Source of the DNA: Streptomyces sp. TN58
GTDB taxonomy: Bacteria; Actinomycetota; Actinomycetes; Streptomycetales; Streptomycetaceae
Direction of reading: 5' to 3'
Length of the DNA stretch: 64,000 bases
NCBI RefSeq assembly: GCF_001941845.1
Contig: NZ_CP018870.1
Location: 4,718,001 to 4,782,000 of the forward strand
Shown piece by piece: positions 7,743 through 11,970 of the stretch. The notes below the pieces were generated by a model. That model worked only from the letters and a program-made list of their open reading frames with translations, ran no database searches and had not been told where the DNA came from. The position numbers and the translations under genes are program-made. Position 1 is the first letter of the stretch, and each line of letters begins with the position of its first letter.

Positions 7743-7877
7743 TCTCTCCGCCCGCTCACGGATCCGCGTATGTTTTTTGCTCGAATTTGGAACTGTGCGG
7801 GCGGTTTGCTCATCAGGAGTAGGGGAGACCAGCCGCTCTGCCCTCGGGGGCAGTCAAGACCGTTCGGAGCGAAGTTC

Positions 7878-9176
7878 GTGCACCAGTACCCGCAGCGCCC
7901 GCGGCCTGACGACCAGCAGTCGTACCAGGACTACCCGCCCCAGGGCCACGGCGGCCAGTACCACCAGCAACCCCAGCAGCACCAGCCGCATCAGCACCAG
8001 CAGCAGTCGTACGAGGCGCCCTCGCCCTACCCGGGCCGGCCGCCGTACGCGGAGCCGCCCACCGCGGCCGGGTACCCGCACGACCCCGAGCCCCCGCAGC
8101 CCAGGCGGTCCCGGCGCCGAATATGGATCAGCGCCGTGGTCGCCGTCGCGCTCCTCCTCGGCGGCGGCGGGTTCGCCGCCTGGAAGCTCGACTGGTTCTC
8201 GGGCAACGGCGAGGCAGTGACCTTCGGCAAGAACCCGCCCTCGGAAGCGGGTGCGGGTGCGGGCGCCGGTGCGGCAGCGGGTGCACCGAGCGCCGAGGCC
8301 AAGCCCTCCGGCGACCCGGACGTGCTCATGCCGACCGGACCGAGGTCGGACTTCAAGCAGACCGCCAAGCTCGACGACGGCACGATCATCGCCAAGACCC
8401 GCGTGGCGGGCGCGAAGTCCGGCTTCCAGGGCGACGTGTGGGTGTGGGCCCCCAAGCAGTACGACGACCCGAAGTACGCGAAGAGCGGCTTCCCGGTGCT
8501 CATCGCGCTCCCCGGCGGCAACGGCTTCCCCAACAACTACTGGGCGGACACCAGCCTCGGCCTCCAGAAGGCCATCACCGAGGGTGTCAAGGCCGGCACC
8601 AGCCTCCCGTACATCGTGATCATGCCGGTGCTCAACCCGGACGCGAAGTACTACTACGACGGCTCCGACATCCCCGGCCAGGCCAAGATGGGCACCTGGA
8701 TCGCCGAGGACGTCCCGGCGTTCGCCAAGGCCAACTTCCGTACCTACAAGTCCCGTGACGGCTGGGCCTTCATGGGCTCGTCCTCGGGCGCGTTCGTCGG
8801 CATGAAGACCGTCCTCCAGCACCCGGACAAGTTCAAGGCCGTGATCGCCAGCGGCGGCGAGATCGTCCCCGACTCCCCGCTGTGGAAGGGCCACCAGGCG
8901 GAGATGGACGCGAACAACCCGGAGAAGCTGGCCCAGAAGCTGATCGACACCAAGGGCCCCGAGGTGTACATCAACTTCCAGGTCGGCACCAAGGAGTCCG
9001 GCAAGGACCGCATGGTGAAGTTCCAGCAGCAGTACGGCAAGGGGCCGGTCAAGACCACCATCCGCGACATCCAGAACGGCGAGCACAACGGCTGGCACTA
9101 CGTGCGGGGCATGAAGGAAGGCTCGCTGGAATGGGTGAGCAAGGTCCTGAAGGCACCGAAGCCGGAGGCGGGCTGA
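7878..9176 (+). CDS. Membrane-anchored alpha/beta-hydrolase esterase, paralogue 1
   Basis: A 432-residue protein with three parts: a Gln/His/Pro-rich cytoplasmic N-terminus (residues 1-78), one membrane segment (ISAVVAVALLLGGGGFAAW, about 83-101) and an extracellular esterase D/antigen-85-like hydrolase. The nucleophile elbow is GSSSG with Ser302; the oxyanion loop is LIALPGGNGFPNNYW; the likely catalytic His lies in GEHNGWHYVRGM. The GTG at 7878 has GGAGCGAAG upstream. It is about 65% identical by eye to the protein at 10888, from which it is separated by an unusual repeat region. Substrate unknown; family members act on esters, including mycolates in mycobacteria. Confidence 0.85.
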   Translation: MHQYPQRPRPDDQQSYQDYPPQGHGGQYHQQPQQHQPHQHQQQSYEAPSPYPGRPPYAEPPTAAGYPHDPEPPQPRRSRRRIWISAVVAVALLLGGGGFAAWKLDWFSGNGEAVTFGKNPPSEAGAGAGAGAAAGAPSAEAKPSGDPDVLMPTGPRSDFKQTAKLDDGTIIAKTRVAGAKSGFQGDVWVWAPKQYDDPKYAKSGFPVLIALPGGNGFPNNYWADTSLGLQKAITEGVKAGTSLPYIVIMPVLNPDAKYYYDGSDIPGQAKMGTWIAEDVPAFAKANFRTYKSRDGWAFMGSSSGAFVGMKTVLQHPDKFKAVIASGGEIVPDSPLWKGHQAEMDANNPEKLAQKLIDTKGPEVYINFQVGTKESGKDRMVKFQQQYGKGPVKTTIRDIQNGEHNGWHYVRGMKEGSLEWVSKVLKAPKPEAG

Positions 9177-9200
9177 CGGTCGGGGGCGGGGGCCGCTGGG

Positions 9201-9450
9201 CCGGGATCCGCTCGGGCGGGGTCGCGAGGCGCGGGCGAGGTTTGGGTGGCGGGAGCCGCCGGGGCGGGGGCGGAAGGCGCGGCGGCGGTGCGGGGCGGGA
9301 GCCACAGGGGCGGGGGCGTCGAGAGGGGCGGCGGTGGTGCGAGGAGCGGGATCCACCCGGGCGGGGTCGCGAGGCGCCGGCGAGGTTTGGGTGGCGGGAG
9401 CCGCCGGGGCGGGGGCGGAAGGCGCGGCGGCGGTGCGGGGCGGGAGCCAC
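9201..9450. repeat. GC-rich tandem direct repeat (145-bp period)
   Basis: Two tandem copies of a block starting GGGATCC-C-CGGGCGGGGTCGC and containing GAGGTTTGGGTGGCGGGAGC and a long GGCGGGGGCGG-type stretch. Copy 1 runs from about 9201 and copy 2 from about 9346, the second cut short at about 9450 where the left arm of the large inverted repeat begins with a related sequence (GGGAGCCACCCGGGCGG). No gene is supported. The strand shows long G-runs that could form structure. Confidence 0.75.
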
Positions 9451-10680
9451 CCGGGCGGTGTCGGTGGGGTTCTGGGGGTTTCCCGTCAGTCCCATCGTCT
9501 CTCCGCGTCGGGCCGGTCCGTCAAGGGCGCTCCCGTTGGTCGCGTCACTTCGTGAGGGCCTTCGGCCCCCCTTGACTGCCCGTCCCGCCACGGAAATCCG
9601 AAAGACTGCCGGGAAGCCCCCAGAGGAACGGGCCGGCCATCCAGACATCCCCCTGGGAGGTCGGCGCCGCGCACCCGGATCCAGGAACGCCCCAAATCGC
9701 TACGCGCTCCTGCCCGACGGCGCCTGCGAGCCCCATGGGCTGGACATAGGCCGCCATCGATCGCTACGCGCTTCTGCGAGTCGGCGTCTCCGAGCCCCAT
9801 GGGCTGGACATAGGCCGCCACCAATCGCTACGCGCTCCTGCCTGACGGCGTCAGCAAGCCTCTTGGGTTGGGCATAGGCCGCCAGAAATCCGTGTGCGCT
9901 TATCCATCACGCGTCCGCGAGTCTCATGGGTTGGGCATAGGCCGCCAGTGGTGGCCGCGCGCTTCTCGATCACGCGTCTGCGGTTCGTCTGGGGCTGGGC
10001 ACAAGCCGCAGAAAGCTTTCCGCGCCCCTCTTGGACGGCGTCCGGCCCCTGGGTGGGGTGGAAAAGCGCCGGATGACGGCTGGAGCGATGCCAATCCATG
10101 TCTGGGAGAGTGCCCGCACCCGAGAGGCTGCCATTCGCCCCAAATGCCCCCGTCTGTACCGACGGGTGGGATCTCGTCGTGCGTCTTGATGGGGGTTGAG
10201 TTCGGCTGAGCCGAGGAATGGCTTTCCCGGCCCTCGATTTCGCCCCTCCCAGCCCCGAACGAGGGGCGGACGCGGTCGTCGAGGAGCGCGTAGCGATTGG
10301 TGGCGGCTTATGCCCGACCCCAGAGGCTCGCGGACGCGTGATGGAGAAGCGCGTAGCGATCTGGGGCGGCTTATGACCAGCCCAAGAGGCTCGCTGACGC
10401 CGTCCTTCAGGAGCGCGTAGCGATTTGACGCGCTCCTGGATCCGGGCGCGCGGCGCCAACGGCCCGTCTCGATCCTGGACACCCGGCCCGTTCCCCTGGG
10501 GGCTTCCCGGCAGTCTTTCGGATTTCCGTGGCGGGACGGTCAGTCAAGGGGGGCCGAAGGCCCTCACGAAGTGACGCGACCAACGGGAGCGCCCTTGACG
10601 GACCGGCCCGACGCGGAGAGACGATGGGACTGACGGGAAACCCCCAGGACTTCCCCGACACCGCCCGAGTGGATCCCGCC
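9439..10680. repeat. Compound inverted repeat with inward-facing 64-bp arrays
   Basis: Outer arms 9439-9637 and 10483-10680 are reverse complements over about 198 bp with only a few mismatches (both contain TCTCTCCGCGTCGGGCCGG on one strand). Inside the left arm lies an array of a 64-bp unit starting ATCGCTACGCGC and ending CATAGGCCGCCA, with starts at 9696, 9760, 9824, 9888 and 9952 and a decayed sixth at about 10016. Inside the right arm three units lie in opposite orientation, ending at 10424, 10360 and 10297. The centre, about 10040-10235, is unique. Because 64 is not a multiple of 3 the arrays cannot encode a regular protein repeat. No transposase is present. Confidence 0.85.
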
Positions 10681-10887
10681 CCCGAAGCCTGCCCTGCACT
10701 TCGATTCCGTCCGGCGTCTCCCACCCCCGCCCCCCGGCCCGCCCCCGCCCCCGCGTGGTGCGCGCCACGTCACCCCCGTCCCAGGCAACCCGCGCCGTCG
10801 TTCATACCTCTGTAAAGGGTGTAAGGGGGACCGATCGGTCCGGCCCGCGCTCCGAGGTGAGCGCCGGAGAAGGAACGGGACAACACC

Positions 10888-11970
10888 GTGCAGCATGACC
10901 AGCAAGGCGAGGACGGCCCCACGACCACGGGCCGCCGTCGCCCTCACCGCCTGCGCCTGCTTCTGATCAGCGGAGGGCTCGCGCTGACCCTCGCCGGGGG
11001 TGGCGCGGCAGCGTACAAGTTCGGCCTCTTCTCGGACATAGGGGATCCGGTCTCCTTCGGCAAGGTCCAGGAGAAGACGGTCACCGCCTCCGAGGCCCTG
11101 CCCGAGGTGCGCATGCCCACCGGGCCCGCGGCGTCGTTCGTCCGGACCAGCCGCCTGCCCGACGGCACCCAGATCGGCAAGGCGACCCTCACCGGCAAGA
11201 AGTCCGGGTTCACGGGTGACGTGTGGGTGTGGGTGCCGAAGGAGTACGACGACCCGAAGTACGCCCAGAGCGGCTTCCCCGTCCTGATCTCCCTGCCCGG
11301 CGGCCGCGGCTACCCGACGAACTACTGGGGCACGGGGCCCGGCCTCGGCCTCCAGCAGGCGGTCAGCGACGGTGCCAAGTCGGGCAAGAGCCTGCCCTTC
11401 ATCCTGATCATGCCGGTGACCAACGCGGACACCAAGCACCACTTCGACGGATCGGACATCCCCGGCCAGCCCAAGATGGGCACCTGGATGGCCGATGACG
11501 TCCCGGATTTCGCGAAGGCCAATTTCCGGACGTTCACCTCCCGCGACGGGTGGGCCTTCATGGGGTCGTCGGCCGGCGGATTCAACGGCTTCAAGCAGCT
11601 CCTGAAGTACCCCGACCGGTTCAAGGCGGCCATCGCCAGCGGGACCGACATCGTCCCCGACTCCCCGCTGTGGAACGGGAACACGCGGGCCATGGACGAG
11701 AACAACCCCGAGAAGCTCGCCGCGAAGCTGATCGACGCCGGCGGTCCCGACGTCTACGTCAAGTTCCAGATCGGGACCAAGGAGACCGGCCGCGAGCAGG
11801 CCGAGAAGTTCATGAAGGAGTACGGCAAGGGTCCCGTGCACACCTCGCTCCAGGTGATCCAGGATGGTGAGCACAACGGAAAGTCGTACGTGCGCGGCAT
11901 GAGGGAGGGCTCCCTGGAGTGGATCAGCAAGGTGATGAAGGGACCGACACCCGCTCCCGACGTGCCATGA
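10888..11970 (+). CDS. Membrane-anchored alpha/beta-hydrolase esterase, paralogue 2
   Basis: A 360-residue paralogue of the protein at 7878: shorter basic cytoplasmic N-terminus, membrane segment (LLLISGGLALTLAGGGAAAY, about residues 24-43) and the same extracellular hydrolase. Nucleophile elbow GSSAG with Ser228; oxyanion region LISLPGGRGYPTNYW; likely His in GEHNGKSYVRGM. GAAGGAAC lies upstream of the GTG start. Shared blocks with paralogue 1 include KSGFTGDVWVWVPKEYDDPK and DGSDIPGQPKMGTW. The stop overlaps the start of the protease gene (ATGA), so these two are probably co-transcribed. Confidence 0.85.
   Translation: MQHDQQGEDGPTTTGRRRPHRLRLLLISGGLALTLAGGGAAAYKFGLFSDIGDPVSFGKVQEKTVTASEALPEVRMPTGPAASFVRTSRLPDGTQIGKATLTGKKSGFTGDVWVWVPKEYDDPKYAQSGFPVLISLPGGRGYPTNYWGTGPGLGLQQAVSDGAKSGKSLPFILIMPVTNADTKHHFDGSDIPGQPKMGTWMADDVPDFAKANFRTFTSRDGWAFMGSSAGGFNGFKQLLKYPDRFKAAIASGTDIVPDSPLWNGNTRAMDENNPEKLAAKLIDAGGPDVYVKFQIGTKETGREQAEKFMKEYGKGPVHTSLQVIQDGEHNGKSYVRGMREGSLEWISKVMKGPTPAPDVP

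Follow-up and report, generated by a model that had tools for sequence, protein, structure and literature searches.

A mobile or recently mobile, non-autonomous element family of Streptomyces with conserved folding of its inverted arms

Introduction

MITEs and mobile insertion cassettes (MICs) have no transposase, possess inverted ends and in some copies hold passenger genes, and the elements of Streptomyces described here share all three properties. They differ from MITEs and MICs in the folding and covariation of their arms, which are each near 200 bp long, in having satellites both inside and outside the arms, and in showing no visible target duplication and no known parent IS. REP, BIME and REPIN sequences with their RAYTs are likewise inverted pairs of palindromes in intergenic DNA, but the present elements are far longer, have cargo genes and occur in carrier genomes of which 9 of 12 have no Y1 transposase. 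Integron gene cassettes resemble them in their small unrelated passenger genes (GNAT, HTH, hydrolases), and integron recombination sites fold as single strands. The arms of the present elements, in contrast, are inverted and paired around the cargo and form no array; at 80 loci neighboring arms always faced each other, and none formed the direct repeats expected of integron attC sites. Nor was any integrase observed within the elements. Compared by description, the BOX elements of Streptococcus are similar in being modular repeats with a variable number of internal units; to our knowledge, BOX elements have no long inverted arms or passenger genes, unlike the elements here.

A likeness of another kind is to the telomeres of linear Streptomyces chromosomes (the Tap/Tpg system). 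In typical telomeres the hairpins are closed by G:A sheared pairs, have GCA loops and are bound by Tap, hairpins II and III being those to which Tap binds, and their branched fold is likened to parvovirus ends, or rabbit ears (PMC4513846). The elements and these telomeres have in common tightly packed palindromes, GNA triloops on the 3′-outward strand and a branched fold (PMC4513846). They differ in that the elements are chromosome-internal, form inverted pairs a few kb apart, are present in many copies and have no significant sequence match to the ends compared here.

How the large accessory gene sets of Streptomyces move is understood only in part, and a family carrying acetyltransferases, regulators and hydrolases between folded inverted ends, without an enzyme of its own, would add such a route. 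Its folding signature with telomere polarity would also provide a handle on whether the linear-chromosome machinery acts on internal DNA. We found no published description of such a family in a literature search that left most subscription journals outside.

Results

Architecture of the Block between Two Esterase Genes

The block was found in a window of 64,000 nucleotides (the whole stretch of DNA that was analyzed) from Streptomyces sp. TN58, contig NZ_CP018870.1. Its features, in window positions, are as follows.

7770–9176, + strand: esterase gene 1 (PF00756), a host neighbor outside the element
9182–9436, + strand: outer satellite of the left side, G-rich and repeating about every 48 bp; other elements are flanked by mirrored copies of it, and it was not seen in the empty intergenic stretches of relatives
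9437–9644, + strand: left arm, a palindrome of about 180 nt, 95% complementary to the right arm
9521–9575, + strand: terminal junction of the left arm, three mini-hairpins; the GNA triloops of the family are on the bottom strand
9688–9982, + strand: left 64-bp array, whose better kept repeats begin ATCGCTACGCGC
9983–10266, no strand assigned: central core; no gene found here, and in other copies cargo lies beside the core or replaces it
10266–10432, − strand: right array of 63–64-bp repeats, orientation opposite to that of the left array
10475–10682, − strand: right arm, partner of the left arm
10544–10598, − strand: terminal junction of the right arm, from the arm core pattern and the arm alignment
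10683–10755, − strand: outer C-rich flank, mirroring the left satellite; outer edge ill-defined
10888–11970, + strand: esterase gene 2 (PF00756), a host neighbor outside the element

The original prediction, made from the letters of the window, was of a giant compound inverted repeat with 64-bp arrays facing inward between two esterase paralogs, and both the structure and its position agree with what we found: the arms are 95% complementary over 208 nt each and 830 nt apart, there is an array on either side, and both flanking genes belong to PF00756. The left array holds about 4–5 direct copies (five to six in the original prediction) and the right array about 2.5 copies of a 63–64-bp unit in reverse orientation (10266 to 10425 or 10432; three copies in the original prediction). 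Each arm is a palindrome in its own right, and the arm core pattern had two matches in the window and none in 100 shuffles of it. On both sides the element continues outward into a G-rich satellite, which is mirrored and repeats roughly every 48 bp; the outer edge of the element blurs into this satellite, and the right outer boundary is not sharp. The 64-bp unit is alike along its full length (80–85% among the first three copies). A CRISPR array was rejected because the entire 64-bp unit is conserved, rather than a repeat with unrelated spacers. The better kept repeats start with ATCGCTACGCGC, whose bottom strand contains GCGTAGC; this is a GNA mini-hairpin, its stem 3 bp long.

Copies in the TN58 Genome

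A search of the 7,585,034-bp, single-contig genome with the arm gave 26 matches, two of which arose because the palindrome matches itself on the opposite strand, leaving 24 arms. These form 11 inward-facing pairs of 1.17–2.84 kb and two halves, all of which lie inside the chromosome and none at a replicon end. The 284-bp core is present, whole or partly, in 10 of these 13 copies and halves. For the outer satellite, 40 of 334 candidate matches in the genome were scored, giving 27 matches, of which 20 flank an element on its outside in the matching mirrored orientation and seven short ones lie elsewhere. Seven of the 11 complete copies sit between convergent called ORFs.

In the half element L067 (2779–3638; near 1.27 Mb of the genome), fragments of a Tn3 transposase occupy the place of the right half, and a Y1 transposase gene adjoins the other half element, L069 (1879–3578; near 3.466 Mb), beside which there is also a TnpB-like frame, so named from its sequence alone. 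A decayed small ORF that starts MPIHVW was seen in the core of eight of the 11 complete TN58 elements and in one S. virginiae element (L174), with stops breaking most frames downstream; it was not found in the other 49 of the 59 pairs scanned. As its frames are mostly broken and it is absent from most pairs, we rejected it as an autonomous gene.

Comparison of Partner Arms

Arm identity within elements compared with that between elements was 0.939 and 0.928, respectively, in TN58, 0.900 and 0.921 in genome G038, and 0.901 and 0.908 in S. lavendulae, so that in the latter two partner arms are no more alike than arms from different elements. Homogenization of the two arms within an element was not seen in this comparison. 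The arms of the 12 copies listed from G038 and S. lavendulae fall into two types, and 10 of these copies combine both types; in L107 and L211 the two arms are of the same type. The copies L104 and L106, for example, share 98.6% identity over 1.15 kb; they are oppositely oriented, and their surroundings differ. Judged from these sequences, the partner-arm data and the L104/L106 copies are consistent with movement of the whole block.

Occupied and Empty Sites in Relatives

At the site of the window copy we compared 26 of 30 loci (TN58, G042, and 24 others; L149–L152 were left out). Besides G042, the arm is absent from all 24 relatives within about 1.5 kb to either side of the second esterase gene, and in 23 of the 24 the esterase pair is adjacent with a short spacer, the exception being L131 (genome G071), which has the first esterase on another contig. 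The spacer in relatives is mostly 0.1–0.3 kb, vs. 1.7 kb in the window. In G042, the second esterase gene is 97% identical and has a gene-less arm pair beside it at the contig end, and the first esterase is at the start of a different contig.

Other TN58 sites gave a similar picture. Counterparts are cleanly empty for L060 (in G269, G227, and G039), L062 (in G269, G199, and G039; in G227 it is empty by spacing only), L063 (in G199), and L065 (in G042). Two counterparts hold remnants, as half an arm persists at the L059 site in G227 (L281) and a short remnant is perhaps kept at the L066 site in G042 (L282), and some of the absences are therefore losses. Several sites, such as those of L064 and L068, are filled in relatives by longer, different contents.

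The L060 site occurs in three states: empty (G269, G227, and G039), gene-less (L283 in G199), and gene-carrying (TN58). Aligned with the TN58 copy, L283 matches continuously from the flank into the arm at either end (86 and 82%), and the TN58 cargo was not found in L283; one and the same insertion thus occurs both with genes and without them. At the seven TN58 sites with counterparts and in the flanks of 12 further copies a target-site duplication was not readable, the edges fading into satellite. The copies are dispersed and polymorphic in presence and absence, as in a MITE or mobile insertion cassette, and since sites that hold the block in one species lack it in relatives, it likely moves.

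Cargo Genes and the Search for an Enzyme

We catalogued 58 inverted arm pairs in Streptomyces, after dropping one of 59 (L203, 240 bp); in five of them (L170, L174, L229, L230, and L232) an arm is cut by a contig end. With genes called by a GC-frame filter at 80 codons or more, 44 of the 58 pairs are gene-less (0.6–1.8 kb, some cut by contig ends) and 14 carry at least one gene (1.4–3.7 kb). Pfam assigned GNAT acetyltransferases to the cargo of L059, L115 (twice), and L218; HTH regulators to L060, L103, L112, L213, and L218; a 2OG-Fe(II) oxygenase to L062; an alpha/beta hydrolase to L103; a GDSL lipase to L114; NUDIX to L201; CYTH to L200; and HAD to L218. In the TN58 copy L060 the cargo comprises a winged-helix regulator gene and a 150-aa gene with no Pfam match. 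Six scanned cargo frames had no Pfam match; the scan omitted four called ORFs (two of L213 and one each of L122 and L115). PADLOC, run on 10 cargo proteins for defense functions, gave no match for nine and only helix-turn-helix matches for one.

Among the 58 pairs no recombinase recurs and no autonomous partner was found. A DDE_5 transposase gene occurs inside one paired element (L114, 2518–3966), beside the GDSL lipase gene. This gene and the Tn3 fragments of L067 were each found in a single copy, standing where cargo or an arm would be, and so have the look of later insertions. The interiors of different lineages are partly related, and a gene common to them was not found. The Y1_Tnp family (PF01797) was identified in three of 12 carrier genomes (G000, G038, and G054) and in none of 12 non-carriers.

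Distribution of the Arm

The arm was found in 41 of 295 genomes of the genus at E ≤ 0.001, 19 of them below 1e-20, in a search in which two candidates were scored per genome and many of the weaker matches cover the core only. The arm core pattern was identified in eight of 61 genus genomes, with no matches for the reversed control, and in four of the 394 genomes from the class (137 genera), each of the four being a member of the same genus. A wider scan gave at least 120 stretches, and all 80 of those listed are from Streptomyces; among the matches listed there are many from S. virginiae, S. lavendulae, S. goshikiensis, S. toxytricini, S. katrae, and S. avidinii. Some Streptomyces genomes have a dozen or so copies of the block. 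That the element is found in many independent genomes rules out an assembly error as the source of the block, a possibility raised with the original prediction.

Among plasmids a single record matched, namely the linear plasmid NZ_CP108163.1 of Streptomyces sp. NBC_00158, which has an arm. This arm (L102, at 168545) is single and full-length, and the gene beside it is annotated as a GNAT acetyltransferase and has no Pfam match. Arm searches of phages and of viral contigs each gave no matches, and an origin from phages was rejected on this basis.

Folding of the Arms and GNA Mini-Hairpins

Folded as DNA, the arm is more stable than its shuffles on both strands (z = −4.0 for the top and −6.7 for the bottom strand). 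For comparison across the family, 159 full-length arms were reduced to 107 by removal of near-duplicates and to 99 by exclusion of eight by hand, and in the alignment of these 99 arms 91.3% of 5869 cells are paired in the named structure. Changes on both sides of a pair were seen at 19 of 61 pairs, compared with 5–9 when the partners were slid and 13.5 in letter shuffles (of which 1 of 500 was as high), and the covariation score was 0.068 vs. 0.022–0.033 for slid partners. The covarying pairs span about 160 nt. The number of further pair types, 32, did not exceed that of the shuffles (30.6; 162 of 500 as high), and several outer pairs, such as columns 9–170, 38–140, 44–134, and 58–120, lack pairing in roughly half of the arms or in more than half.

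Three small hairpins terminate each arm. On the bottom strand a GNA triloop is found in mini-hairpin 2 in 94 of the 99 arms, in mini-hairpin 3 in 97 and in mini-hairpin 4 in all 99; the arm core pattern fixes some letters of mini-hairpins 3 and 4 and none of mini-hairpin 2. All four bases occur at the N position across the arm set, and the flanking G-A/A-G steps of mini-hairpin 2 are kept in 98 of the 99 arms. The left arm of the window copy has a first mini-hairpin loop of the exceptional type found in five of the 99. The small stems are in the register of a triloop and not of a UNCG tetraloop.

The GNA mini-hairpins have a polarity. In the 88 halves of 44 gene-less elements, there were 280 with stems of at least 3 on the 3′-outward strand against 25 on its complement (about 26 and 22 on average in shuffles), and those with stems of at least 4 numbered 168 and 20 (shuffle means 7.9 and 6.3). 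Since the arms are related by descent, these loop and polarity counts are not independent. In the interiors without the arms the counts were 119 vs. 25 at stems of at least 3 but reversed, 7 vs. 20, at stems of at least 4, so the interior polarity rests on short stems; the window as a whole is also uneven in its strand counts (35 and 69).

One of the arms excluded by hand, in L191 (3207–3401), has a mini-hairpin module in duplicate. Differences between other arms likewise involve entire loop modules, as though hairpins had been exchanged or copied.

Comparison with Chromosome Ends

We read 16 end stretches, 14 and the two ends of the carrier plasmid. Five sequence ends of carrier genomes and the carrier plasmid (L303, L304, L307, L308, and L309), chosen from the 16 for their visible telomere-type palindromes, have 29 GNA mini-hairpins on the 3′ strand and none on the 5′ strand in their outer 300 bases, which is the same polarity as that of the element (3′-outward strand). 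None of the 16 stretches has a GNA mini-hairpin with a stem of at least 4 on the 5′ strand in the outer 200 bases; the ends L300, L295, and L296 each have one such mini-hairpin on the 3′ strand, and L310 begins with a CA repeat. The arms had no significant sequence match to the 16 stretches (best 13 bp, E 0.059). The two ends of the TN58 chromosome, which the mini-hairpin counts exclude, are identical to each other over the 1500 bp read and likewise had no significant arm match. As far as these sequences can be judged, the likeness to telomeres is one of form, by style and polarity, and not by demonstrated descent.

Discussion

The dispersed copies, their presence and absence at the same sites, their cargo and the lack of a recurrent recombinase show that the block belongs to a mobile or recently mobile family that is non-autonomous in the copies read. 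The folding of its arms is conserved, with base pairs maintained by compensatory change. A non-autonomous mobile element was one of three explanations offered in the original prediction, and is the one to have survived. The reading we favor, and hold to be reasonably probable, is that the block is one copy of a Streptomyces element family that likely moves as a unit, aided by a protein whose gene lies outside the element; recognition of the arms is predicted to be that of folded single-stranded DNA, in the manner of a Streptomyces telomere end. The folded form of the arms would be that of single-stranded DNA, to which a trans-acting protein would bind, and insertion may proceed via a single-stranded or end-primed intermediate. 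By analogy with the telomeres, the host protein Tap would be the first candidate for the binder. It counts against this reading that Tap or a counterpart is presumably present in every Streptomyces with a linear chromosome, yet a minority have the arm. Gain or loss of passenger genes would take place next to the central core and leave the ends as they are.

An ordinary MITE or mobile insertion cassette, with DDE-type IS ends moved by a transposase in trans and palindromes that are incidental or regulatory, seems to us an unlikely account. The inverted ends, passenger genes, gene-less majority and lack of an internal recurrent recombinase all suit it, and transposase genes do occur singly, as DDE_5 in L114 and Tn3 fragments in L067. 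These, however, are each in one copy only, at the cargo position or replacing an arm, no target duplication was seen, and a transposase site that is short and double-stranded would not call for covariation over about 160 nt. A REPIN-like element, in the form of a giant REP doublet mobilized by the REP-associated Y1 tyrosine transposase, would account for two palindromes in inverted orientation and for folded-DNA recognition, and a Y1 transposase gene does lie beside the half element L069, but PF01797 is missing from nine of 12 carriers and all 12 non-carriers. With Y1_Tnp in only three of the 12 carriers, REP/RAYT is largely ruled out as the general agent, save for a Y1 enzyme that has diverged too far to match PF01797, and we regard this explanation as highly improbable.

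That the block is a structured RNA or a bidirectional transcription terminator between genes, kept by selection and spread by recombination, we consider distinctly unlikely. The location of seven of the 11 complete TN58 copies between convergent ORFs favors it, compensatory changes suit RNA as well as DNA, and GNA triloops also occur in RNA. Against it stand the small stems in triloop rather than UNCG tetraloop register, the sites empty in relatives (including that of L065 in G042) and the cargo genes between the arms, which it leaves to be explained. A search of Rfam 15 gave no match above the gathering score (six matches up to E 1, the best at E 0.036, were all far below). A structured RNA had been put forward in the original prediction; since no Rfam family reached its gathering score and the loops follow the triloop rule of Streptomyces telomeric DNA, it is unlikely as the main reading. 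The third suggestion made there, a scar of the tandem duplication that produced the esterase genes, has in its favor the position of the block exactly between two paralogs. It is contradicted by the 23 of 24 relatives in which the esterases neighbor each other without the block, and by the other TN58 copies elsewhere in the genome, and we reject it as having practically no chance of being correct.

An extension of our preferred reading, in which a protein encoded elsewhere acts on folded arms, is that the elements are telomere-mimicking transposable cassettes, whose GNA mini-hairpin ends would use the Tap/Tpg telomere-binding and end-priming proteins of the host for mobilization. We judge this to be unlikely. 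If the extension were true, a system that maintains linear chromosomes would double as a system of gene capture.

A separate observation was made at the L068 site, where in G199, G227, and G269 (L289) about 5.6–6.2 kb lie between the same neighbors, with a single arm in G199. This content is possibly a larger, older cassette.
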